A stretch of 60,403 bases of DNA from Flammeovirgaceae bacterium (GTDB lineage: Bacteria; Bacteroidota; Bacteroidia; Cytophagales; Cyclobacteriaceae). Positions 3-60,403 of this stretch are shown here, piece by piece. Within the stretch, counting starts at the first letter, position 1. The number at the start of each line of letters is the position of its first letter. Position numbers and translations under genes: made by a program. The stretch lies in the NCBI GenBank assembly GCA_013204595.1, contig JABMNK010000083.1, positions 1 through 60,403 on the forward strand, written 5' to 3'. A model generated the notes under the pieces. It was not told the DNA's origin and did not search any database. It saw only the letters and a list, made by a program, of their open reading frames with translations.

Positions 3-1289
3 CATATAGCCCTCCACAATATTGCCTTTGTCTCACAAGGGATTGAAAAAGAAAACCTAGTCTTATCACTTGATTTTGATGATTTTGAATTACTCAATGA
101 TTCACTAGCAATCGTTTACAATCAAAATAACGAAGCGTTGCTATCCATTGCAGGTGATTTTCTGATCCCTTGGGAATCCGCTCGCAAAATTGTAACCACA
201 AAAAATTATCGCTACTCCAGAAGTACTAATGACTATAAAATTTACGATGAACAATACATCGACCATTTCGGAACCGACACTTTCAGTGAACTAATAGCAA
301 ATGATCATTGGTTTGCATTCAAAAATAATAAATGGAATTTAGTAATTGAAGAGGGTGGTCTGCTCTTAAGCCAAATTGATTCTCTGTTTTTGGTCAATGG
401 CATGTCTCTTGCCATTCTTGATACCGATTCTTCCTATGTGCTTTTCCCAAATGGCACACACCTCACACTGGACAAAAAAGAAAATTTAAGATCCCTCTCC
501 TATCGAGATGAGCGTGGTAAAATTGTGGCCGAATATCTTCAAAAAGAATTTGAAACTGTTAAAGAAGTTTATAACTCGGAGGGTGTGCTTATGTTCAAGG
601 GAGCGTTCGAGGACATCTACTGCCTAACGGACTCCCTCTTTAAAGTGACAAAAGACAAAAAGCAAGGTCTTTTAGATAAAGATGGTGAAATTATCATTTT
701 ACCACGCTATGATTTCATAGAACAAAAAGAGAATATCGCTCAGTTACTTCGAAACGGGAAAATTGAGGGATTTGATTTAGTACATAAAAAAATAATCATT
801 AATCCAGCCGATGGCTCGCTTGAACGATTTGGGTCTTATTACCTAACACAAAAAAACACTTCATCGGGCGTAATAGATGAAAATGGGGAAACTATTATCG
901 ATTTCAAATACGATGAAATTATCGCATTAAATGATTCTTTGAGTTGGGTTAAAAAAAATGATACGTGGGACCTTATCGCGATAAATGATCAAAACGTTAT
1001 TTTAACAGGGGTCAGGAAATTCCAATTACTGTCTAAGAAAGGAGAGGTCTATCGCTACTTTAATGGTGAAAAATATGGCCTGTTTTACGGGGATCAATCG
1101 CAACACTATGCTCCAGAATACACCGACATAAGAGCTATTTTTAATGACGACATAACCATTTTTTTATTCGAAATCTATATTCCCTCCGCACCTTTTCATA
1201 TTTTAATTGCAAAAAACTTCAATGGTGAACAACTCTATTCACGAGCTTATCGACCTGATGATTATGAGCGAATTATGTGTGAGTTTTAG
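3..1289 (+). CDS. WG-repeat protein, 5' truncated by the window
   Basis: The reading frame is open from position 3, so the true start lies left of the window and about 428 residues are visible. The protein contains degenerate WG repeats: units of the form G-L-L/V-I-D-x-x-G-E-x-I-I followed by a Y-D-x-I segment, seen for example around 665-720 (GLLDKDGEIII, then YDFI) and 865-925 (GVIDENGETII, then YDEI). Such repeats form stacked beta structures and are common in exported or surface proteins of Bacteroidota; the molecular role is unknown. The stop is followed by a 26-nt spacer to the convergent coaE gene. A TTG at 138 could be mistaken for a start, but the repeat-like sequence continues in frame upstream of it. 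Confidence 0.75.
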   Translation, partial: HIALHNIAFVSQGIEKENLVLSLDFDDFELLNDSLAIVYNQNNEALLSIAGDFLIPWESARKIVTTKNYRYSRSTNDYKIYDEQYIDHFGTDTFSELIANDHWFAFKNNKWNLVIEEGGLLLSQIDSLFLVNGMSLAILDTDSSYVLFPNGTHLTLDKKENLRSLSYRDERGKIVAEYLQKEFETVKEVYNSEGVLMFKGAFEDIYCLTDSLFKVTKDKKQGLLDKDGEIIILPRYDFIEQKENIAQLLRNGKIEGFDLVHKKIIINPADGSLERFGSYYLTQKNTSSGVIDENGETIIDFKYDEIIALNDSLSWVKKNDTWDLIAINDQNVILTGVRKFQLLSKKGEVYRYFNGEKYGLFYGDQSQHYAPEYTDIRAIFNDDITIFLFEIYIPSAPFHILIAKNFNGEQLYSRAYRPDDYERIMCEF

Positions 1290-1315
1290 TTTGAATCTAG
1301 TATCTCATCTTTGAC

Positions 1316-1930
1316 CTAGATCATTAAATGATCTATTTTTAACTTTATTTCTGCACACAACTTTATTACCTGAGGCACTACTGGTTCAACTTCGTCATTC
1401 TGGATCACAAACTTGGTCATTGCCAATTTTTCGGCATCTGGAAGTTGGCGAGCCATAATCGATTCAATTTCTGCTGGCATACGTTGGGGGTCTCGCTTCA
1501 AAACACGAGCCATCCTTAGTGCCTTAGGCGCTACCACTAAAATAGTTTGATCTAACTGTTTATATACGGACGTCTCAAATAGCAAAGCCGATTCTTTTAA
1601 AAGAATCGGATGGGCGCCTTGGACCGCGACCCAATCTGAAAAATCATGACCGACTGCTGGATGTACGATTCTATTAATTTTAGATAATACTTCTGGGTTT
1701 CCAAAAGATCGGTCTGCTATCAGCGTGCTATTTAATACACCCCTTTGATAGCTTTCTGGCCCAATTAACTCAATGATCTGTGCGCATATTTGATCATTAT
1801 AGTTCATCAAATACTTGGCTCTGGCATCGGCGTCATAGACAGGTATACCCATGGAAGAAAAAATCCTGCTAACCGTACTCTTCCCACTTCCTATTCCTCC
1901 CGTAAGCCCAATAAGTAAAGATTTAATCAT
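1316..1930 (-). CDS. coaE: Dephospho-CoA kinase
   Basis: Catalyses the last step of coenzyme A synthesis, ATP-dependent phosphorylation of the ribose 3'-hydroxyl of dephospho-CoA, in the cytosol. The 204-residue product has the P-loop GGIGSGKST at residues 11-19, then the family's YDAD segment (VYDADARAKYL) and a helical CoA-binding and lid region. Length is normal for CoaE. The ATG at 1930 is preferred over an upstream in-frame start at 1960 because it places the P-loop at the usual distance from the N-terminus and overlaps the ybbR stop codon by 8 nt, which indicates translational coupling. It is last in a minus-strand run that includes nusB, yajC and ybbR. Confidence 0.95.
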   Translation of the reverse strand: MIKSLLIGLTGGIGSGKSTVSRIFSSMGIPVYDADARAKYLMNYNDQICAQIIELIGPESYQRGVLNSTLIADRSFGNPEVLSKINRIVHPAVGHDFSDWVAVQGAHPILLKESALLFETSVYKQLDQTILVVAPKALRMARVLKRDPQRMPAEIESIMARQLPDAEKLAMTKFVIQNDEVEPVVPQVIKLCAEIKLKIDHLMI

Positions 1931-2864
1931 GATAGGTCCACTGAATCTCTCCTGGATCAAATATGATCTGGATCATGGTATCCAACGGATACTTCTTTAG
2001 TATTGGTATGGCAACGGTATCAGATTGACGCAACTCATAATCAAGCACGATTTGAAAATCGTCAGGCAAAAATCTGGCACCCACAGATTTTTCTACTATA
2101 TAGACAAGGGTTATTGCAGAATCCAAAAGTTGGATTGGCCGATTTGGAGGAAAATTTTTTAATTCTATAGGAACCGTAATGGTGAAATTTGAAACTTCAG
2201 ACACTTTAAAAGAGACCCGAACCTCATTGGGAGAAAATGATAGAATATTTTCAAAAATGATTGGTATTTTTATGGGTCTACTAAAATTTTCATCAATGTT
2301 TCTCTCCTTTGGTAAAAAATAATAATCACTTTCCAGAGAATTAATAATTGATTCCGGGCCTGTAAGCGTTACAGAGTTTGGCTCAATTAAGATAGGTGAG
2401 GTCACTCGATGCCCATTTTCAATCGAAAGATTGAGGGAATCTACTTTTAAATTGATTTCCTTAGATACTTTTCGCTCAATATTTAAGTAAAGCGTATCAG
2501 TCAGAATATAGTTGATCTTCAGTCCTTGTAGCTGTTCTTCAATGATAGGTGTCAAAAAAGACCTTGTAAGAAACAGTACTTCTGAAGGATTCTCCAATTC
2601 GACGCGGAGAGGTTCGATACTAAATAACAAGGTCCTTCGGAATATGTTCCATCCCCTGCTGTTAATGTCTATTTTTATTACGTCCGGAAGTGGCGACATG
2701 ACTACCGCCTGATCCTTATCAAAAACAAACTCAATAGGATAACTAATCAGCGCACTATGATCTTTATTCAAGGCCCTAAAAAACCAAAAGGTAGAAGCCA
2801 CCAATATTGAGAGCACTACTACCTTCCAATCTTTCAAGAAATTTTTAAACTTCAATTTGATCAT
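1923..2864 (-). CDS. YbbR-like (CdaR-type) membrane-anchored protein
   Basis: A protein of about 313 residues with a short cytoplasmic N-terminus, one membrane helix (about residues 14-31, VVVLSILVASTFWFF) and a long extracytoplasmic part. Residues from about 120 resemble YbbR domains, including an LTGPESIINSL segment typical of the family. In Firmicutes YbbR/CdaR proteins regulate diadenylate cyclase; in Bacteroidota the gene usually lies next to coaE and yajC and its role is not established. ATG at 2864 is chosen; the preceding codon is GTG (2867), which could also serve. It follows yajC by about 14 nt and overlaps coaE. Confidence 0.85.
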   Translation of the reverse strand: MIKLKFKNFLKDWKVVVLSILVASTFWFFRALNKDHSALISYPIEFVFDKDQAVVMSPLPDVIKIDINSRGWNIFRRTLLFSIEPLRVELENPSEVLFLTRSFLTPIIEEQLQGLKINYILTDTLYLNIERKVSKEINLKVDSLNLSIENGHRVTSPILIEPNSVTLTGPESIINSLESDYYFLPKERNIDENFSRPIKIPIIFENILSFSPNEVRVSFKVSEVSNFTITVPIELKNFPPNRPIQLLDSAITLVYIVEKSVGARFLPDDFQIVLDYELRQSDTVAIPILKKYPLDTMIQIIFDPGEIQWTYHD

Positions 2865-2878
2865 CACATCATAGATGT

Positions 2879-3184
2879 CTATTTCTGATCTGCATATTTT
2901 TTGCTTGTGTCTGATGAAATTGATGATTTCTCAACAACCAATTTATTCCCTCGATCAACATCAAGGGTAATGGTGTCGTCATCAACGGAAATCACTTTTC
3001 CATGAATTCCTCCAAGGGTTACAACGATATCTCCTTTTTTAATCGCTTCTATAAAACTCTTGGTTTCCTTCTGCTTTTTTTGCTGCGGTCTAATAAAAAA
3101 GAAATAAAATATAACAACCATACCTCCCAGCATGATAAACTGAGAATAATTCCCTGCTGCTTGTAAAATAATAGTTTGAATCAT
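2879..3184 (-). CDS. yajC: Preprotein translocase subunit YajC
   Basis: A 101-residue inner-membrane protein, accessory subunit of the SecDF-YajC complex that assists Sec protein export. It has one N-terminal membrane helix (about residues 17-32, MLGGMVVIFYFFFIRP) followed by the diagnostic IRPQQKKQKE motif, then a small beta-rich cytoplasmic domain with the usual GDIVVTLGGIHGKV segment. Length and order are typical. The start follows the DUF1573 gene by 7 nt, so the two are surely cotranscribed. Confidence 0.96.
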   Translation of the reverse strand: MIQTIILQAAGNYSQFIMLGGMVVIFYFFFIRPQQKKQKETKSFIEAIKKGDIVVTLGGIHGKVISVDDDTITLDVDRGNKLVVEKSSISSDTSKKYADQK

Positions 3185-3191
3185 AATGCTC

Positions 3192-3704
3192 TTAAGATGG
3201 ATCTGCCTTGTTTACGTTGGCTTGAATATTCAGTCGACTTACCTTGGGATACGTGTTGGCCGTAACAGTGACTGTTTTGTTTTGTACCCCTGGCTTACTT
3301 CTACTATTAAATTCTACTTTAATTTCACCTTTTCCACCAGCTGGGATAGGGTCTCTTGGCCAGACAGGAACGGTACATCCACATGAAGCAGTAGCGCTAC
3401 TAATGATCAAAGGCGCGTCTCCTTCATTTACAAATGAGAATACATGACTTACTATTTCACCCTCATTAATGGTGCCAAAATCATATGCTTCTTCTGAAAA
3501 ATTCAATGTCGGAAGAGGCCCTTCTGGCTTAACTGCCGAATCGTTGGTTGGCATTACTGGCTTGGGCGTTCTTATGCCACTAGTTTCCAATTCGGCCATT
3601 TTACCCTCTAATTTGGCAAGACGAGATTCTATCTCCTTGTTGGTACAACTAAATCCTATTAGGACTAATACAAACATTCCTGCAACTTTTTTTACGTTTT
3701 TCAT
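3192..3704 (-). CDS. DUF1573 lipoprotein
   Basis: A 170-residue exported protein. A signal sequence ends in a cysteine at about residue 20 (LIGFSC), so it is probably a lipoprotein. A short predicted coiled segment (ESRLAKLEGKMAELE) is followed by the DUF1573 domain at about 70-165: FGTINEGEIVSHVFSFVNEG, then the SATASCGCTVP segment with the conserved CGCT pair and a VEFNSRSKPG segment. DUF1573 domains are Ig-like (related to ASPM-SPD-2-Hydin) and very common in Bacteroidota envelopes; the function is unknown. The gene commonly sits beside nusB and yajC in this phylum, as here. Confidence 0.9.
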   Translation of the reverse strand: MKNVKKVAGMFVLVLIGFSCTNKEIESRLAKLEGKMAELETSGIRTPKPVMPTNDSAVKPEGPLPTLNFSEEAYDFGTINEGEIVSHVFSFVNEGDAPLIISSATASCGCTVPVWPRDPIPAGGKGEIKVEFNSRSKPGVQNKTVTVTANTYPKVSRLNIQANVNKADPS

Positions 3705-15945: not shown

Positions 15946-16668
15946 TTTTTTTTAAAAGTTATACGACTCCCTCTTCGTTAAAATACCGATGACCCCAATG
16001 CAGTCATGTTCTAAGTTCCTCAGAAAAAGCTATTTTTTTTTATTTCAGCCAGACAATATACTCACCAATAACATACCTTCAAAGCTAGCGCATTATGGAT
16101 GATGAGTAACAACGCAACCTATTGTGCAAGTATGACATAGTTTGAGCTAATTGACAAAAACAAAATGTCAAGAAAAACAATCATTGTGAGAAATTCAAAA
16201 TGGGATTTTACCAAATATCCCTATCCCTATCCCTACTACTGATAACAATTTCGTATAAGTATTTCTACCATGAAGGAAATTAAAGGAGAGGTGAAATCGC
16301 TGAAAAATATAAAAAAAATTCAATTTAGGAAGGCATAGTTAATGTCGAATGTACTATAAAACCCCTCAGGTGAAATTAATGGGCCTACAAGAACGCTTGT
16401 TAAGTGTAATCCCATAGTAAACACGATTTCTTTTTGAAAAGGCAAGGCCCTATAGCCAAAGTCTCCTGCACAGAAGTCCTCCATAGTACCCCGATTGAGA
16501 GTAATCATAAATTGACCATTAAATAACTAGGCAGTGAGGGCCGTATACAAATCAATTTAACTTTCACTGCTCATAACAAACTTTAAAAAATGAAATTTGA
16601 TAATAAATTAAAACTGCCTTGCGCTCTGGATTACCAGTAATTAAATTACAGCTTTACAATAAGTATCA
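15946..16668. other. 723-nt intergenic gap between divergent genes
   Basis: No convincing gene. The only notable reading frame is on the minus strand at 16320-16508 (62 residues, described separately). A run of three ATCCCT units occurs at 16216-16233. The gap must hold the promoters of the acyltransferase (minus) and the branching enzyme (plus), but no clear TAnnTTTG box was found. Confidence 0.6.
16320..16508 (-). pseudogene. Possible gene remnant with beta-barrel-like ending
   Basis: A 62-codon frame, preceded by an in-frame TAG six codons upstream. Its translation, ending GFYSTFDINYAFLN, alternates polar and hydrophobic residues and ends with aromatic strands as outer-membrane barrels do. 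It is too short to be a working barrel and has no signal peptide. It may be the tail of a decayed gene or simply chance; not recognised. Confidence 0.2.
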
Positions 16669-52756: not shown

Positions 52757-55524
52757 ATCTTGAAATTGTAAGTAATCGTAGGAATCATTTTAGAGAAAAC
52801 AGTCATTTTATATCCCTCAACAGTGCCGTCAACCGTCTTAAAAAAGATAGAATAAACATTGTCTCGTCCCGTGAGATTATAAATCGAAAACGTCCAAAAA
52901 GAATGTGCCAACTTTTTAACCTTGTGGCTGCCCTCTATATTAAATCCAAGGTCGATCCTAAAATAATCAGGAATACGAAAGGCATTTCGATCAGAATATT
53001 GAAGACTTTCAAAATTACTATAATTCCATTTTCCAATCGGATAGGTAACAGGTCTTCCTGTAGCATAAATGACATTTAAGGATAGAATATACCTTCTAGT
53101 CAATTTGTAGTTGGTCACCAAATTCAAATAATGAGGTCTGTCATAGCTAGTCCGGAAAAAGGCCCCACCATTGACTCGTTCCTCGGCAAAGTCTCCATCC
53201 AATTTGATCAAACTTCTCGAAAGCGTATAATTCATCCAGCCAGTAAACCATCCATTTGATTTTTTTGCTGATAATTCAAATCCATAGGAACGTCCGGCTC
53301 CTTGTAACAAATCAGTTTCAATGTTTTTATTGAATTGCAAATCTGAACCAACTTTAAAATCCACTAGGTTCTGTATCCACTTATAATAAACCTCTGCAGA
53401 AAACTCTAGCGCATTACTCCCTACCGTATTTTTATAATAGCCTATTGAAATGAGATCTGCTATTTGAGGTGCGATGTATTTGCCCGACAATCTCCAAATA
53501 TCGGTCGGTGCCAAAGAAGCGGAATTAACGAGCATATGAACATATTGTCGCGACCTGTTATAGCTGGCCTTTATCGAACTCAAATGTGGAAGAGAAAACC
53601 TTCCTGATAAGCGTACTTCAGGGCCGTGGTAAGTAGCAATCGGCGCTCCCTTTTGGTAGGAAATAGTATCTACTATGAAATCTTGACTCAAAGGTTTATC
53701 ACTGGCATACTGATAAGATTCTGACGGACCCAAATTAGAAAATAGGGAATATCTTAGACCCGCGTACAGAGAAATCTGTTTGGACGGTTCATACTGATCG
53801 GAAAAATAGATGGCAGATTCAATTCCTTGCTCGGGGTTAATCTCATCATAACGAATGTCGGATAGCTCCCCCAAAGACTCTCGAACCCCTGGATTTACCT
53901 GATATCTTTTCGCAGTCATTCCAAAATTGAAATAGTTTTTATCTCCTAAATAATAATTGAAATCCGCAGTGCCGGCCAATTCGGAGATGTCATAATTGAT
54001 ATCAAAAGCCTGCGTTGCCAACGCATCATACCCAATATTATAGCGGTATCGACTGCCTGTAAATCTTAACGTCCCATCAAAAATATCATTAAATTGATGC
54101 TTCCAGTTTATAGAAAAATTTGAATTGGTATAACTAAAATCAGAATAACCAAGTAAGGAATCCGAATCAAGTTGAAAACTATCAAAACTATAATAACCTG
54201 TAGCTGAAAGGGTGTTTTTTTCATCAATTTTATGATCCATTTTGACAATCAAATCATAAAATGCGGCCTCTTGATTGGCAAAAGGAGATTTGGTCAGTTG
54301 TTTTAGCACAAAATCAGAATATGTTGCCCTTCCGCCCAACATAAAAGATGTTTTGTCTTTTATGATAGGTCCTTCAAGCAATAAGTTTGAGGTAACAGGT
54401 CCAATCCCCCCATTTAAAGAAAATTTTTCTTTATTGGGGACCCTAGTTGTTACTTCAAAAACCGAAGATAGCCGACCTCCGTATTTCGCTGGAATACCCC
54501 CTTTGAAGAGTTCCATTCCCTCCACAGCTTCCGAATTAAACACGGAAAAAAAACCGAAAAAATGAGAAGTATTATAAATAGGGGCACCATCGATCATAAA
54601 AAGATTTTGATCTGCCTTCCCCCCTCTTATGTTGATACCCGCAGCCCCTTCTCCAACTACCTGAACCCCAGAAGTCGTCGTTGCTGCCTTGACAATGTCT
54701 CGCTCACCCAAAAGTACAGGTACATTTTTAGTCTCTTCAATTCCTATTCGAGTAACACCCATTTGAGACTGATCTATATTAATATCTCGATCTGAACTGA
54801 CGGTTACCTCGTTCAGAGCGATTACATCTACCTCCATCTCTACATTTAAAGTGCCTTCAGAAAATACGACGATCGTACGATCGGTGTTTTTCATTTCTAA
54901 AGATTGAAATAATAAAATATGCCTACCGGTGGGGGCATTCAATGTGTAAAAGCCTGTCGCATCAGTTGTGGTCCCAATGAATGGAGATTCTAAATATATA
55001 AAAGCGCCCTCAACGGGTATCTGACTTCCTTCTTGTCTGACATAACCCGCTATTGGAACGGTCTTGCCAATAGTAAACTGATTCCGATCACCAACCTCAA
55101 ATACTTTTTCTTGCTGATTGATACCCTCCTCCTCTTTTTGGTATTCCTTCGCAAAAATCAATCCCTTTTTAATCGGCTCATAGGTTGCCTCTCCATTAAA
55201 AAATTTTCCTATTCCAAACTGAGTAATTATCGGTTTTTGGTAAGAAATGTATACTTGATCTCCACTCAATAAATAATTCAATTTGTTACTGCTAAACACT
55301 TGATGTAAAACCGTATCTAATGAGGCATTTACGAAATTGTCAGAGACTTTAACAGTATCAATCCAATTTATGTCATAGAAAAACTTGATTTTAAATTGTG
55401 CTTCTAAGTCTAGAATCACCGAGGCGAGTGACTCTTCAGAATAATTTTCTGTAAATCTTGCCGTCATCTGAGCATAGGAAGAGACTGATGTTATTAAGAT
55501 AAATATGACCAATAAAACTCTCAT
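52753..55524 (-). CDS. TonB-dependent outer-membrane receptor with STN and carboxypeptidase-like domains
   Basis: An outer-membrane receptor of about 923 residues that imports an unknown ligand using TonB energy. After the signal peptide (MRVLLVIFILITSVSSYAQ) comes an STN domain (about 22-95, FTENYSEESLASVILDLEAQ), a carboxypeptidase-D-like beta domain (about 160-240, VPVEGAFIYLESPFIGTTTD), a plug (about 250-360, GGKADQNLFMIDGAPIYN) and a beta-barrel. The ATG at 55524 is chosen because its ATGA overlap with the upstream stop is the usual arrangement; ATGs at 55548 and 55533 also exist. STN domains usually contact FecR-type anti-sigma factors, but none is nearby. Confidence 0.92.
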   Translation of the reverse strand: MRVLLVIFILITSVSSYAQMTARFTENYSEESLASVILDLEAQFKIKFFYDINWIDTVKVSDNFVNASLDTVLHQVFSSNKLNYLLSGDQVYISYQKPIITQFGIGKFFNGEATYEPIKKGLIFAKEYQKEEEGINQQEKVFEVGDRNQFTIGKTVPIAGYVRQEGSQIPVEGAFIYLESPFIGTTTDATGFYTLNAPTGRHILLFQSLEMKNTDRTIVVFSEGTLNVEMEVDVIALNEVTVSSDRDINIDQSQMGVTRIGIEETKNVPVLLGERDIVKAATTTSGVQVVGEGAAGINIRGGKADQNLFMIDGAPIYNTSHFFGFFSVFNSEAVEGMELFKGGIPAKYGGRLSSVFEVTTRVPNKEKFSLNGGIGPVTSNLLLEGPIIKDKTSFMLGGRATYSDFVLKQLTKSPFANQEAAFYDLIVKMDHKIDEKNTLSATGYYSFDSFQLDSDSLLGYSDFSYTNSNFSINWKHQFNDIFDGTLRFTGSRYRYNIGYDALATQAFDINYDISELAGTADFNYYLGDKNYFNFGMTAKRYQVNPGVRESLGELSDIRYDEINPEQGIESAIYFSDQYEPSKQISLYAGLRYSLFSNLGPSESYQYASDKPLSQDFIVDTISYQKGAPIATYHGPEVRLSGRFSLPHLSSIKASYNRSRQYVHMLVNSASLAPTDIWRLSGKYIAPQIADLISIGYYKNTVGSNALEFSAEVYYKWIQNLVDFKVGSDLQFNKNIETDLLQGAGRSYGFELSAKKSNGWFTGWMNYTLSRSLIKLDGDFAEERVNGGAFFRTSYDRPHYLNLVTNYKLTRRYILSLNVIYATGRPVTYPIGKWNYSNFESLQYSDRNAFRIPDYFRIDLGFNIEGSHKVKKLAHSFWTFSIYNLTGRDNVYSIFFKTVDGTVEGYKMTVFSKMIPTITYNFKI

Positions 55525-56261
55525 TCTTTCCATCCCATTTGATGACAATACATTGCCAATCGTTTAATATCTTGGTCTTGATTTGGTTTAATTAATAATG
55601 TATTTGACTTTATAAAATTTTTAATTTCTTGTTTATGAATCGGATAAGCCTGAAAAAAAGCAGATTTATTCTTTATTTTAATCCGCTGATTCTGTAGGAT
55701 TAAAAAATAGTGATCCAGTGAATAATAGGCTACTGCTGGATATCCTTCAGGGCCATTTTCAAAATGCTCTTTTTTTGTCTTTTTCACCAAAATCTTGATC
55801 TCGGGCGCTTCAAATAAAACCTGATAAAAACCAGGCATATCTGGCGCCTGATTTCCTTCAAATCTTTTAAATACATTATTCCCGATTTCAAATTCAGAAA
55901 TAAGATACTGCGCCAATTTCAGCGGTTCTGTCTTGGTCAAGAGATTTGTTTCATTTTGAATCAGCAACAAATCCCGGAAGGTATTATAAAGCATGCTCAC
56001 TTCAAAAGTTTGACCCTTGTAGGTGAGTTTTCCTCGCTGCCAATTCTTCTCAAGATAATATTCATGACTCCTTACAGATTGGGTCACGAACGGATAAAAA
56101 GAACCCCTAATCAGAACTGTGTTTTCAATCTTTATTGTCGAATCATACCAATTCGAGACATCCTTATCCAAATCCAGATTACCAATCAAGTATTGGCCAT
56201 AAAGGGGTCCGGTAATACCGATACCTATTGAAAAAATAAAATACTTTAAAAATGAAATCAT
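55521..56261 (-). CDS. Exported hypothetical protein, first gene of the TonB receptor operon
   Basis: A 246-residue protein with signal peptide (MISFLKYFIFSIGIGITGPLYGQ). No domain is recognised. The mature part looks like a beta-rich fold (NTVLIRGSFYPFVTQSV, KLTYKGQTFEVSMLYNTF) with a C-terminal helical stretch. Its stop overlaps the receptor start by 4 nt, so it is transcribed with it and its role is probably tied to the transport system. Its upstream leader has a 12-bp inverted repeat. Confidence 0.7.
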   Translation of the reverse strand: MISFLKYFIFSIGIGITGPLYGQYLIGNLDLDKDVSNWYDSTIKIENTVLIRGSFYPFVTQSVRSHEYYLEKNWQRGKLTYKGQTFEVSMLYNTFRDLLLIQNETNLLTKTEPLKLAQYLISEFEIGNNVFKRFEGNQAPDMPGFYQVLFEAPEIKILVKKTKKEHFENGPEGYPAVAYYSLDHYFLILQNQRIKIKNKSAFFQAYPIHKQEIKNFIKSNTLLIKPNQDQDIKRLAMYCHQMGWKE

Positions 56262-56677
56262 AAATAAATACTACTCTTTTTTATTGTTGAATTATTGCTA
56301 TACCCAACTAACAATAAAAAAGTTGACCTAAAATCATCATAGGCTGCACAAAAATATAACTTAAACCTTTTGCAATTCAGAATCCTGACGAAAGATTAAA
56401 TCAAAGATACTTCTATAATAACCGTTATACGTTACCTCCCGTAAGTAAAAGGATCAATCTTTACAGAAATCTCAGAATCAGCTTCACATAAAAGCGCTGA
56501 TGGTGTGAATTTATAGATAAATAAATACAATGACTTCAATATCTCCTCCGCTCATCACAAATACCAGAAATACCCCGCCCTATCACTGGGTGTGAGCTTT
56601 TAAGATAACCATAAATGTTCGTACCGAATCCAATGATCCGTTATTTTAAATCCACTATTTTCAATATATTAGCAGTC
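56262..56677. other. 416-nt divergent intergenic region
   Basis: Lies between the TonB operon (minus) and the TRAP genes (plus). It holds the 12-bp inverted repeat at 56276-56322 and little else recognisable. The frame that extends the DctQ gene to 56615 is also here. Confidence 0.5.
56276..56322. repeat. 12-bp inverted repeat in the TonB operon leader
   Basis: CTTTTTTATTGT (56276-56287) pairs perfectly with ACAATAAAAAAG (56311-56322), 15 nt upstream of the operon's first start codon. AT-rich and separated by 23 nt, so it may be an operator or leader hairpin. Confidence 0.35.
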
Positions 56678-57172
56678 ATGAATCGTATGATTACTCAGAT
56701 TAATAACCTTACTCAAAGCATAGGGAAAATCGTATCTTGGTTTTCTATTCTTTTAATCATCATCATCATTGTCGATGTTTTTTTTAGGTATTCGTTTAAT
56801 ATCACCACAACGGCAACTTTTGAAATAGAATGGCATCTTTTTGGATTAATGTTTATGCTTGGAGCAGCCTGGACACTTGAACAAGATAAACATGTCCGTG
56901 TTGACTTATTTTATCAAAGTTTTGGATCCAAAACCAAAGCACTCATCAATTTATTTGGGACCCTGCTACTTTTAATCCCTTTTTGCTGGGTTGGCATGGT
57001 CGAAAGTATTGATTTTGTGACACATTCCTATGCTCAAAATGAAACTAGTCCAGATCCAGGCGGACTCCCTGCAAGATATTTGATCAAAGCCACTATCCCC
57101 TTGGGGTTTGCCTTATTGCTGTTGCAAGGTATTTCCTTGATATTAACTTCAATAAAAACCTTGATTAGGTGA
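56678..57172 (+). CDS. TRAP transporter small permease (DctQ-type)
   Basis: A 164-residue membrane protein with four helices, the small permease subunit of a tripartite ATP-independent periplasmic transporter. The VDVFFRYSFN and WHLFGLMFMLGAAWTLEQDKHVRVDL segments are characteristic. The ATG at 56678 (MNRMITQINNLTQ) gives the usual N-terminus; a longer frame from 56615 adds 21 residues without hydrophobic or conserved features. Its stop overlaps the large-permease start (TGATG). Confidence 0.88.
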   Translation: MNRMITQINNLTQSIGKIVSWFSILLIIIIIVDVFFRYSFNITTTATFEIEWHLFGLMFMLGAAWTLEQDKHVRVDLFYQSFGSKTKALINLFGTLLLLIPFCWVGMVESIDFVTHSYAQNETSPDPGGLPARYLIKATIPLGFALLLLQGISLILTSIKTLIR

Positions 57173-58473
57173 TGGCAGAATACCTACCTATACTGTTTTT
57201 TGCCGCTGTCTTTATATTAATCTTGGCTGGATATCCGGTAGCTTTTACCTTGGGGGGTATCGCTGTGATCGTAGGGGTATGGGTTTTTGATATGGACTTT
57301 TTCTATCTGCTCTCCTTGAGGGTTTATGGGACCATGCAAAATTTCGTCCTGTTAGGAGTCCCTCTTTTTGTATTTATGGGTATGATGCTTGAAAAATCTG
57401 GAATTGCTGAGAAGTTACTGGAAACTATGGCCTTGCTTTTTGGTAAATTTAAAGGTGGTTTGGCACTATCGGTAATTGTAGTTGGTGCCTTACTCGCAGC
57501 TTCCACAGGAATCGTAGGTGCCACGGTGGTGACTATGGGATTAATCAGCCTCCCAACAATGCTTAAACGCGGTTACGCTCCAACCCTCGCCTTAGGCACT
57601 ATTGCGGCTTCCGGAACGCTCGGACAAATCATACCTCCCTCGGTCATTTTGGTTTTATTGGCAAGTGTATTGAATGTCCCCGTAGGCACTTTGTTTGTGG
57701 CAGCAATCGTTCCTGGCAGCTGCCTAGTCCTCTTTTATGCCTTGTATGTCATTGTCTATGCCCAAATCTTTCCCAACAGGGCACCGGCAATGCCAAAAGA
57801 AGAAGTCGCTTCATTTAGAGCCATCGGATTTTCCAAGGAAGTAATTCAATCCTTTTTGTTGCCGCTGTTACTCATTGTAATGGTTTTGGGTACCATCATT
57901 GGAGGCATTGCCTCCCCAACCGAAGCAGCAGGGGTCGGTGCTATGGGGGCCATTTTATTGACGCTATACAAGCGTAAGCTTACGATAAAAATTCTTTCAG
58001 AAGTGACCAAAGAAACGATCATGTTGACTTCCATGGTGTTTATGATATTGATAGGTGCTACTGCCTTTTCGCTCGTGTTCCGAGGACTTGAAGGTGATAA
58101 AATGTTTCTACAAATAGTATCCGAATCTCAACTAGGACCAGATGGGTTTTTACTGCTGGTCATGGCGCTGGTATTTATCGCAGGGTTTTTTATTGATTTT
58201 ATTGAAATCATCTTCATTGTCGTCCCTGTCGTGGCGCCAATATTTGCAAGTATGGGCATTGATCTTGTATGGATTGGCATCCTGCTCGCCATCAATCTTC
58301 AAACGTCCTTTCTTACTCCTCCTTTTGGCTTTGCACTTTTTTATCTCAAGGGCGTCGCACCTCCTGAGATAAAGACCAAACAACTCTATCTGGGCGTACT
58401 TCCCTTTGTCTTTATTCAAATAGTTTTTTTGACCTTACTTATCCTATTTCCAGGATTACTGAAGTTATTTTAA
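57172..58473 (+). CDS. TRAP transporter large permease (DctM-type)
   Basis: A 433-residue membrane protein with about twelve helices, the ion-coupled large permease of a TRAP transporter for carboxylates or similar acids. The segments PLFVFMGMMLEKSGIAEKLL, TIAASGTLGQIIPPSVIL (with the conserved GxLGxxIPPS), GIASPTEAAGVGA and FLTPPFGFALFYLKG are typical. ATG at 57172 is used; a GTG one codon earlier is possible. It follows DctQ with TGATG overlap. No DctP binding protein is adjacent. Confidence 0.93.
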   Translation: MAEYLPILFFAAVFILILAGYPVAFTLGGIAVIVGVWVFDMDFFYLLSLRVYGTMQNFVLLGVPLFVFMGMMLEKSGIAEKLLETMALLFGKFKGGLALSVIVVGALLAASTGIVGATVVTMGLISLPTMLKRGYAPTLALGTIAASGTLGQIIPPSVILVLLASVLNVPVGTLFVAAIVPGSCLVLFYALYVIVYAQIFPNRAPAMPKEEVASFRAIGFSKEVIQSFLLPLLLIVMVLGTIIGGIASPTEAAGVGAMGAILLTLYKRKLTIKILSEVTKETIMLTSMVFMILIGATAFSLVFRGLEGDKMFLQIVSESQLGPDGFLLLVMALVFIAGFFIDFIEIIFIVVPVVAPIFASMGIDLVWIGILLAINLQTSFLTPPFGFALFYLKGVAPPEIKTKQLYLGVLPFVFIQIVFLTLLILFPGLLKLF

Positions 58474-58639
58474 TTTTTTAACTACCTCATTAATAATATA
58501 TTAGAAAAATATTATTGTCGTTCAAGTCATCCTATTTTTTCCAAAAAACTTGGTGATTTTAGATGACGTTAAAAGAAAAATCAGCAATTTTTCCAACCAA
58601 AATACGTTAAACTCGTCTTAAGAACTTAACCCGTTCAAT

Positions 58640-59107
58640 ATGAAAAAGTATTCATTCCTCTGTTTATTCTCAATGCTGCTCACCATACCGTCTTTATCTC
58701 AACCAAAAATGAGTTCAAAAGCACTATACGGTAAATGGAAACTTCATGTCGACATCAAAGAAGCACTAAAAGAAGAACAATTTGATCGTAGTTTTCTAGA
58801 ATCCATTTTCATTTCGGGAATATCGGACATGGTCGAATCCATTTTAAACGAAGTACTAATCACTTTTTATTTTGATAAAAACAATGAACTGATAGTAACT
58901 GTTGTGATCAATATCGAAGATGCTGAAACGGAAATTGAAACCTTAACTTGGGAAATCAATTCAAAGGGTCAATTGCTGATTGAAGACATTGACAACGACG
59001 AAGTTAATCTTCAAAACGATGGTTTTTGGTTATTGAAAAATGGGGTTTTGATCAATTTTGATGAACAAGGTACTTTGCGAGAACACATTTACTTGGTGAG
59101 GGAATAA
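58640..59107 (+). CDS. Small exported hypothetical protein, lipocalin-like
   Basis: A 155-residue protein with signal peptide (MKKYSFLCLFSMLLTIPSLSQ). A GKWKLHVD segment after the signal and repeated beta strands (VLITFYFDKNNELIVTVVINI, LTWEINSKGQLLI, GVLINFDEQGTLREHIYL) recall lipocalin-type folds, but no family can be assigned. It is monocistronic, with a terminator-like hairpin downstream and the tRNA-fragment junction 59 nt after its stop. Confidence 0.7.
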   Translation: MKKYSFLCLFSMLLTIPSLSQPKMSSKALYGKWKLHVDIKEALKEEQFDRSFLESIFISGISDMVESILNEVLITFYFDKNNELIVTVVINIEDAETEIETLTWEINSKGQLLIEDIDNDEVNLQNDGFWLLKNGVLINFDEQGTLREHIYLVRE

Positions 59108-59118
59108 CCACTCAAATT

Positions 59119-59153
59119 AAAAAAACCTATCAGCTAAACTAAGAGGCTTTTTT
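59119..59153 (+). terminator. Probable Rho-independent terminator
   Basis: A stem of AAAAAAACCT (59119-59128) against AGGCTTTTTT (59144-59153), with one mismatch or bulged C at 59147, ending in a six-T run. It lies 12 nt after the stop of the small exported protein gene. Confidence 0.6.
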
Positions 59154-59165
59154 AACTCAAAAAAA

Positions 59166-59188
59166 TGTCGGGATGACTGGATTCGAAC
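59166..59188 (-). other. tRNA 3'-end fragment, probable attachment site of a mobile element
   Basis: Read on the minus strand, 23 nt match the T-loop and 3' acceptor strand of a tRNA: GTTCGAATC (T-loop with its closing pair), AGT, then CATCCCG as the 3' acceptor strand, discriminator A and CA. The acceptor implies a tRNA starting CGGGATG, i.e. a C1-G72 pair, which points to tRNA-Pro. The 5' side of the T-stem (AAGAG) does not pair, and no anticodon or D arm exists, so this is a fragment. It is what remains at one end after integration into a tRNA 3' end; the intact tRNA should be at the other end, to the right. Confidence 0.75.
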
Positions 59189-59241
59189 TCTTGTTGTATA
59201 TACTTGATAATCAATGATTTATAATATTTAATCTTTAATTT

Positions 59242-59281
59242 TGGTGAGTATATAATAAAAAATGGTGAGTATTACTCACCA
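59242..59281. promoter_or_regulatory. TGGTGAGTA operator-like repeats in the element end
   Basis: TGGTGAGTA occurs at 59242-59250 and 59263-59271, 21 bp apart (two helical turns); the second copy forms a perfect inverted repeat with TACTCACCA at 59273-59281 (1-nt spacer). This resembles binding sites for a dimeric regulator or excisionase. Confidence 0.5.
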
Positions 59282-59328
59282 ATATTTTTTATCTATCAAC
59301 CCTATATTCATTACTAATATATACAAAA

Positions 59329-59360
59329 AATGGGATACTATATAGTTACAGTATCCCATT
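59329..59360. repeat. 11-bp inverted repeat in the element end
   Basis: AATGGGATACT (59329-59339) and AGTATCCCATT (59350-59360) are perfect complements around a 10-nt loop. No T-run follows, so it is more likely a protein site or structured RNA than a terminator. Confidence 0.5.
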
Positions 59361-59479
59361 ACCAAAGGTGGATTTGTACATAGGTATTGAAGACAATTGA
59401 ATCGATGTTAGAATCCTAAATAGAAATAATTTCAATATTTTTCATTCATTTTTTATCGTTTTCCTACACTTCGTAATAC

Positions 59480-59788
59480 TTATATAAGATACTGGTGTCC
59501 AACATAGGGTTCAACACCAACCACCCATGAGGAGTACATTAGTAGTGGGTCAGAAGTCGGATAGTATTCTGTGGGATTGAAATAATATCTAAACATAACG
59601 GAAGAGGTTTCTCCGATAGTATCAAAAATGATTCTACTATAAATCAGATATGGGGGATTCCAACGGACTGGTCTGAGGAAGTGTAGAATTAACTCACTGA
59701 AAGGATTGTAAAAAATCTCTAAGGGGATTGGTGTATCTAGTTCTGAATAAGTTGAAACAATAAAAAAGTTTGAATAAAAAATTCCCAC
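59480..59788 (-). CDS. Hypothetical element protein (doubtful)
   Basis: A 102-codon frame with a GTG start (59788); an in-frame TGA lies six codons upstream and there is no ATG. The translation is rich in Y, F and P (YFNPTEYYPTSDPLLMYSS) and matches nothing known. It may be a genuine small cargo gene or a chance open frame in AT-rich DNA. Confidence 0.3.
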   Translation of the reverse strand: MGIFYSNFFIVSTYSELDTPIPLEIFYNPFSELILHFLRPVRWNPPYLIYSRIIFDTIGETSSVMFRYYFNPTEYYPTSDPLLMYSSWVVGVEPYVGHQYLI

Positions 59789-59839
59789 CTCTTCACTAAA
59801 AATTCAAGGTTGATACTATTTATAATAAACTGTTTAAAG

Positions 59840-60082
59840 ATGAAACAAAACAAACTAACACCTGAATCCTTACAATGGATAAAAGACCATCCAAAAGAGT
59901 TCATGGAGGAGTTAATCAGAAAATCAGAACTGGTTAAAAACTTCTCCCATAAATTAGAAGAATTCAGAATCAGAAAAGATAAAATCGGTTACAGTTTGAA
60001 ATTCAATGAATTATTAAAAAAAGAAGAGGATAAAATAAATGGAAGAAAGAATAACCAAACAACAACTAATGAAGATGTATAA
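59840..60082 (+). CDS. Small hypothetical element protein, possibly coiled coil
   Basis: An 80-residue product starting MKQNKLTPESLQWIKDHPKE at ATG 59840 (a longer frame from 59810 adds ten poorly supported residues). It is charged and helix-rich, with a possible coiled coil (SELVKNFSHKLEEFRIRKDK) and a basic, asparagine-rich tail. No domain is recognised. It overlaps the next gene by 44 nt in a different frame. Confidence 0.5.
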   Translation: MKQNKLTPESLQWIKDHPKEFMEELIRKSELVKNFSHKLEEFRIRKDKIGYSLKFNELLKKEEDKINGRKNNQTTTNEDV

Positions 60083-60227
60083 TGTAAATAGAAGTACCAT
60101 AGAAGAGTGGAGGAGAAGGTTTGGATTACCGATGATACAAATATCCTCTCATAAAAAATACATCCGTAGAGAGGATTTAATGAAGTGGGAGAATGAGATG
60201 AAAGATGGGGTATGTGAAGTGAATTAA
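60039..60227 (+). CDS. Excisionase/MerR-like winged-helix DNA-binding protein
   Basis: A 62-residue protein consisting of a single small winged-helix domain of the excisionase (HTH_17) type: TKQQLMKMYNVNRSTIEEWRRR for the two DNA-reading helices, then GLPMIQISSHKKYIRREDL for the wing and YIRREDL recognition end. In integrated elements such proteins act as recombination directionality factors or repressors. Its overlap with the upstream gene and the presence of TGGTGAGTA repeats about 0.8 kb upstream suit a regulatory role; direct binding is inference. Confidence 0.65.
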   Translation: MEERITKQQLMKMYNVNRSTIEEWRRRFGLPMIQISSHKKYIRREDLMKWENEMKDGVCEVN

Positions 60228-60403
60228 ATACTGAGGACTATATGAAAATAGGAATTAATCAAAGGTTGATACTCTTTCTAATCTTTTTATGAGTCTTTAA
60301 TCTACCATTACCTTTAAAAGAGGTTCTTTATTGATTGGGTAAGTTTGAGTTGGAAAGAACTTTTGAAATCAAATATTTTTACAGAATTTGGATAGGGTAA
60401 TAC
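60228..60403. other. Element DNA at the window edge
   Basis: No ORF of note. AAGGTTGATACT at 60262-60273 repeats a 12-mer at 59806-59817 (the latter just before the small coiled-coil gene), suggesting a shared regulatory or promoter sequence ahead of successive element genes. Confidence 0.4.

Follow-up and report, generated by a model that had tools for sequence, protein, structure and literature searches.

The right end of a Flammeovirgaceae contig as the very probable attR end of an integrative element inserted in tRNA-Pro

The kind of element described here is already well known. Phages that insert into tRNA-Pro have been described in Porphyromonas gingivalis, with the proposed family Nixviridae (PMC10367356). 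The arm-binding integrases of Bacteroidetes elements constitute the IntCTnDOT subgroup, including CTnDOT and NBU1 (PMC8138268); according to the title of a reference cited there, the site used by NBU1 is a tRNA gene 3' end. The element analyzed here may resemble the IntCTnDOT subgroup in a tyrosine recombinase with an arm-binding domain (seen on a relative with 68% identity) and in subterminal arm sites (putative here), but its target is tRNA-Pro rather than tRNA-Leu, and the recovered parts contain no recognised mobilisation or resistance gene. With the Nixviridae it shares insertion into a tRNA-proline gene (PMC10367356), whereas those are phages with capsid genes, and its own recovered parts showed no recognisable phage gene. 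Likewise, integrative and mobilizable elements have a tyrosine integrase, a small excisionase-like protein (RDF) and site-specific integration (PMC5704250); in the recovered parts of the present element, no oriT or relaxase was identified, a 58-bp block being at most a candidate for such a site.

The window, that is, the whole stretch of DNA analyzed, corresponds to the entire contig C70 (60,403 bp) of the source genome G000, an assembly of 137 contigs and 3.01 Mb with a computed completeness of 99.85%. The last 1.2 kb of this contig form one end of an integrated element, and we consider it very probable that they are the attR end of an integrative element inserted in tRNA-Pro. The element reaches the end of contig C70 itself, beyond the mere edge of the window. 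The element DNA (59189..60403) is absent between DctM and tRNA-Pro in seven same-genus loci and has a G+C content of about 30%; the values of 29.5-30.5% in 59200-60399 versus 31-47% in seven 600-bp blocks of 55000-59199 agree with the AT-rich DNA that the initial annotation placed to the right of a tRNA-Pro 3' fragment. Past 59495, the end of C70 had no other match in G000 at E 0.001, and Rfam gave no match at E 1 for 58400-60403.

The fragment, TGTCGGGATGACTGGATTCGAAC at 59166-59188, is the sole copy in the window even when 3 mismatches are allowed, against a shuffle expectation of 0.00. ARAGORN called 0 tRNAs in the window, and the fragment is not part of a full tRNA, as had been read from the letters. 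Elsewhere in G000, TGTCGGGATGACTGGATTCGAAC occurs once more, with 1 mismatch, on the minus strand at C93:26799-26821. The stretch common to the fragment and the intact tRNA-Pro is 22 nt (59167-59188), not the 23 nt originally counted, because base 59166 differs. The attachment-site core (attR) is accordingly placed at 59167..59188 on the minus strand, identical to C93:26799-26820 in 22 of 22 nt, so that the far side of the element carries the 3' end of the tRNA again as a direct repeat. The complete tRNA-Pro with this same 3' end, which the initial annotation had proposed to look for, occupies C93:26745-26820. ARAGORN gave it the anticodon AGG and called no other tRNA-Pro at the loci of the 22 listed tRNA-model matches (150 of 170 candidates scored in G000).

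A 498-aa tyrosine recombinase ORF starts at C93:26921, 100 bp after the intact tRNA-Pro and directly 3' of it, in the order that had been predicted. The ORF matched PHROG 1 (integrase) at E 1.1e-18 and Pfam Phage_integrase at E 4.8e-6, with 26.9 bits, 0.2 below the curated cut-off of 27.1. In an alignment of four integrase homologues including that of G000, residues R292, K319, H400, R403, H427 and Y436 (numbered on the first row of that alignment) are invariant, and were assigned by eye as the catalytic R/K/H/R/H/Y set. At E 0.001, the G000 integrase gave no match to Arm-DNA-bind_5; the 68% identical relative shows Arm-DNA-bind_5 (E 8.1e-5) together with Phage_int_SAM_5. Between tRNA-Pro and the integrase on C93, an inverted repeat with a T run was noticed by eye, as were inverted repeats at this place in the other four integrase ends. 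The next ORF after the integrase (297 aa, opposite strand) had no family matches. The expectation that the intact tRNA and the integrase lie to the right therefore holds for their order, but they are found on another contig: the two ends of the element are on separate contigs, C93 and C70, which no contig joins. A repeat and an unassembled middle lie between the two, and we infer their physical join.

On the host side, the element is preceded by the TRAP transporter genes for DctQ (Pfam E 2.4e-22) and DctM (E 2.4e-84) at 56615..58473 on the plus strand. Between DctM and the attachment site there is an intact 155-aa ORF (58640..59107, plus strand), which lies outside the element, begins by eye with a signal-peptide-like sequence, and had neither a family match nor a tblastn match in the same-genus dctM loci examined. 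Since this ORF has no counterpart at this place in the relatives, and since the gap from dctM to the tRNA core is wider (692 bp in G000 versus 205-277 bp in the same-genus loci), the conserved host flank is DctQ-DctM. The initial annotation had placed an intact gene and its terminator before the fragment. The ORF is indeed intact; the possible terminator, an inverted repeat at 59117..59155 with 17-nt arms that are 82% complementary, is missing from the four sites that the terminator scan reported.

The same locus was compared in relatives by searching nine same-genus genomes for DctM, of which eight scored above the threshold and one (G006) did not, with one locus taken per genome. An intact tRNA-Pro follows DctM after 205-277 bp in seven of these eight loci. 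In all five loci that show both flanks, DctM is followed without interruption by one intact tRNA-Pro and a DUF4403 gene; this run is the empty site, and the segment is missing from these five relatives, as had been expected of an integrated element. In two further loci, the contig stops 19-23 bp past the tRNA and only the DctM-tRNA side is visible. The DUF4403 proteins of the relatives are 41-44% identical to the one encoded upstream of tRNA-Pro on C93, and the DNA 5' of the C93 tRNA-Pro resembles that of the same-genus relatives. The G000 locus is split: C70 has DctM and the fragment, and C93 has DUF4403 and the intact tRNA-Pro. In the eighth genome (G003; a second DctM copy there was left out of the comparison), about 8.5 kb of genes that appear by eye to be sugar-transport-like (L072, G003:C9, 1939-10462) separate tRNA-Pro from DctM, with no second core copy within 4 mismatches. 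The tRNA-Pro/DctM junction looks like an insertion hotspot that takes other insertions too. These comparisons bear on the proposal that the fragment is a chance or duplicated piece of tRNA, produced by chromosomal rearrangement or chimeric assembly and unrelated to an element. The location of the locus halves on two contigs of a 137-contig assembly speaks for it, but the tRNA whose 3' end the fragment repeats is the one adjoining the integrase gene, the 9-bp repeats described below agree at both ends, and five relatives have the locus uninterrupted, which makes this proposal extremely improbable.

The C93 side of the element is interrupted 2.87 kb from its start by a multi-copy repeat that begins at C93:29691, just upstream of the 297-aa ORF, and C93 terminates 99 bp beyond the repeat start. 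The sequence at C93:29691-29789 begins with TGTAAAACGTCAGCC (start set by eye) and also occurs at the ends of C87, C39, C102 and C32, so that five contig ends lie in it. The repeat is probably the end of an insertion sequence; no transposase was seen, and its repeated occurrence is what suggests this identity. The contigs C87, C39, C102 and C32 were considered as the missing middle and rejected, because by gene content they look like other chromosomal copies of the repeat (the ORFs of C102, C87 and C32 resemble acyl-CoA-dehydrogenase, gyrB, photolyase and trmE genes, named by eye). As a refinement of the integrated-element reading and not an alternative to it, the element may by now have become inactive, a remnant that an insertion sequence and decay have broken up. 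The probable insertion sequence in the C93 side points in this direction, as does the integrase frame of the same-genus G006, which contains a stop and runs off its contig. In G000, however, the integrase frame is free of stops, the two cores are identical, and the arm repeats and the 62-aa ORF are intact; we regard inactivation as unlikely, though a real possibility, and infer that the element may still be mobile today.

Near the attR core, the 9-mer TACTCACCA occurs at 59242..59250 (minus strand), 59263..59271 (minus) and 59273..59281 (plus), giving three copies within 93 bp of the window fragment, and two copies are found between tRNA-Pro and the integrase on C93. Elsewhere in the window there is one copy, at 16059. 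In simulated DNA matched to the base composition of the element, the mean number of copies in 1215 bp was 0.007 and the largest was 1 in 5000 simulations, and any 9-mer repeated in both of two paired 150-bp ends was obtained in 5 of 2000 simulated pairs. These 9-bp repeats are probably integrase arm sites, a putative assignment made from sequence. Together with a 14-bp hairpin at 59329..59360 (minus strand), which is followed by a T run and looks like a terminator, they bear out the earlier description of this region as repeat-rich.

Four homologous integrases were found, in G059 (68% identity), a Flavobacteriaceae metagenome-assembled genome with the integrase at locus L051, and in G317, G215 and G006 (45-47%), and all four lie directly after a tRNA-Pro gene. 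Such homologues are rare: among the matches listed, with at most three candidates scored per genome, they occurred in 4 of 390 family genomes at E 1e-40 and in 2 of 390 genomes order-wide at E 1e-60, with G000 counted in both. The element of G006, which belongs to the same genus as G000, is cut off by a contig end, and both ends are seen in four of the five elements (G000, G059, G215 and G317). Each element has its own word, namely TACTCACCA in G000, TAGTCCCCA in G215 and G006, TACTCCCCA in G317, and TAGTCTCC (followed by A or G) in G059. When words were counted within 200 bp of the core, three of the four elements had their own word exactly at both ends, with 2 + 3 copies in G000, 1 + 2 in G215 and 2 + 2 in G317. 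In G059, the word is exact twice at the far end and the integrase end has only TAGTCTCCG, with one mismatch. None of the nine ends examined contained another element's word exactly, and single 9-mers of the form TA[CG]TC[ACT]CCA also occur away from the ends. The presence of an element's own word at both of its ends is as expected of integrase arm sites.

The G215 element is complete: it runs for about 4.4 kb between L066 4189, at the 3' end of tRNA-Pro, and L066 8571, where the far end is an exact 13-nt copy of the core end. Besides the integrase, it contains genes for a serine recombinase (Pfam Resolvase), for a 130-aa protein and, near attR, for a homologue of the 62-aa protein, as well as a small ORF similar to the 80-aa ORF of the window. 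It resembles the G000 element in the integrase after tRNA-Pro, the 46% identical 62-aa homologue, the similar small ORF, the layout of arm sites and the core repeat. It differs in its arm word, TAGTCCCCA instead of TACTCACCA, and in the serine recombinase and the 130-aa HUH-like protein, neither of which is present in the recovered G000 parts. The 130-aa protein (L066 7738-8130 and L083 3256-3576) is 92% identical between two genera over 107 aa, and a search for it gave matches in G215 and G317 and 0 in G000, G006, G003 and G059. By eye, the G215 protein contains the motifs HIHLLLH and YINKK, which we take to be HUH-like and YxxK-like, respectively. Pfam, PHROGs, NCBIfam and PDB gave no support for the HUH label (one PHROG match had E 0.13), and none of these proteins was found in plasmids.

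Considering these relatives together, one may suppose a family of small elements specific to tRNA-Pro, each with an integrase that would read its own 9-bp word, written at both ends, some members carrying a miniature HUH-like protein and two sharing an end block that is possibly an origin. We offer this only tentatively and lean against it, because insertion of a Bacteroidota phage into tRNA-Pro is already in print and because the word at the integrase end of G059 is inexact.

The excisionase-like protein mentioned in the initial annotation was corroborated as a 62-aa ORF at 60039..60227 (plus strand), with matches to Pfam HTH_17 (E 2.5e-7) and to PHROG 66, "excisionase and transcriptional regulator" (E 8.2e-7). 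A single-sequence AlphaFold model is a winged helix with a pLDDT of 77.5; compared with PDB folds, it had no significant match, the best being RacA (E 0.092), with the GIsul2 excisionase 8c3t in fourth place. The homologue in the complete 4.4-kb G215 relative, 46% identical over 54 aa, makes the 62-aa winged-helix protein probably a good candidate excisionase (Xis/RDF) and suggests that it probably belongs to the core set of the element family. The 80-aa ORF at 59840..60082 (plus strand) resembles, in an alignment, small ORFs in the G215 element and in G317 (contig C4); it had no Pfam or PHROG match and one NCBIfam match far below the cut-off.

The 58-bp block at 59438..59495 (minus strand) is 98% identical to C29:1-58, and by eye a part of it is also present in G215, about as far from attR, and a shorter part in G317. 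When three copies were folded, no common hairpin could be seen. The block could serve as an origin, for replication or for transfer, or be bound by a protein. The matching C29:1-58 is the end of a different insert, which splits a comM-like (Mg-chelatase) gene between C3:80637-81030 and C29:1-510 of G000; both ends of that insert carry the inverted sequence TTGATAGGAGGTT, and its right end has the 58 bp (98%) in common with the window. C29 was rejected as the continuation of C70, because its left end belongs to the comM-like insert, whose other half ends C3.

The element DNA recovered in G000 amounts to 4.1 kb over both ends, and contains no gene of recognised accessory function. The missing middle was sought in G000 with the C70 end, the C93 end, a gene common to the G059 and G317 elements, and the 130-aa protein, and was not recovered; the search with the common gene, which did not find it in G000, had no positive genome, so its empty answer shows nothing. 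The G059 element is longer, extending 13.6 kb from the tRNA to the contig end and a further 4.2 kb at the other end if the two are joined. Its island at L051 encodes a ParB-N6/N4 methyltransferase, has two ORFs with parts of a PbeA-like helicase, and encodes a GHKL ATPase matching MzaB (E 1e-6), a content that makes the defence cargo guessed at in the initial annotation plausible for the element family; the cluster at L051 11493-21482 is a possible defence cluster. An HNH-endonuclease-like protein (PHROG 559, E 1.5e-26) is also located in this interval. An 880-aa SLBB/Poly_export protein, encoded at L063 (G059:C2) 596-3238, adjoins the far end of the G059 element and is perhaps its cargo.

The unseen middle leaves room for a prophage or a conjugative element instead of a small mobilizable or satellite-like island, and the size of the G059 relative and the tRNA-Pro prophages of P. 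gingivalis (proposed Nixviridae, PMC10367356) fit with this. However, no phage-structural, relaxase or transfer gene and no oriT was recognised in the recovered 4.1 kb, no integrase relative was found in 50,697 phage records at E 1e-10 or by a pattern search of viral contigs, and the complete G215 relative is just 4.4 kb in size; we judge a prophage or conjugative element to be improbable. A plasmid search returned one weak match, a Bacteroides integrase with 27% identity over 37%, and PDB sequence searches gave nothing significant. No paper on the G000 integrase family was noticed in the literature searched, which is weak evidence of absence.

In the integrative-element reading that we prefer, the element-borne tyrosine recombinase would recombine the 22-nt core of the element with the identical 3'-terminal 22 nt of the host tRNA-Pro gene. 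Integration would leave an intact tRNA-Pro at the integrase end on C93 and a bare 22-nt copy at the window end (59167-59188). The integrase probably binds TACTCACCA as its 9-bp arm site, of which the integrase end has two copies and the window end three, and the role of the 62-aa winged-helix protein is probably that of the directionality factor, which would favour excision. From a tRNA fragment noticed by eye where a contig ends, an element was correctly predicted whose other end is on a different contig of a fragmented genome. The putative arm sites differ between the elements and agree within each, and they provide a natural test set for the choice of DNA by the arm-binding domain. If each integrase does read its own arm word, arm specificity would be readable from sequence.
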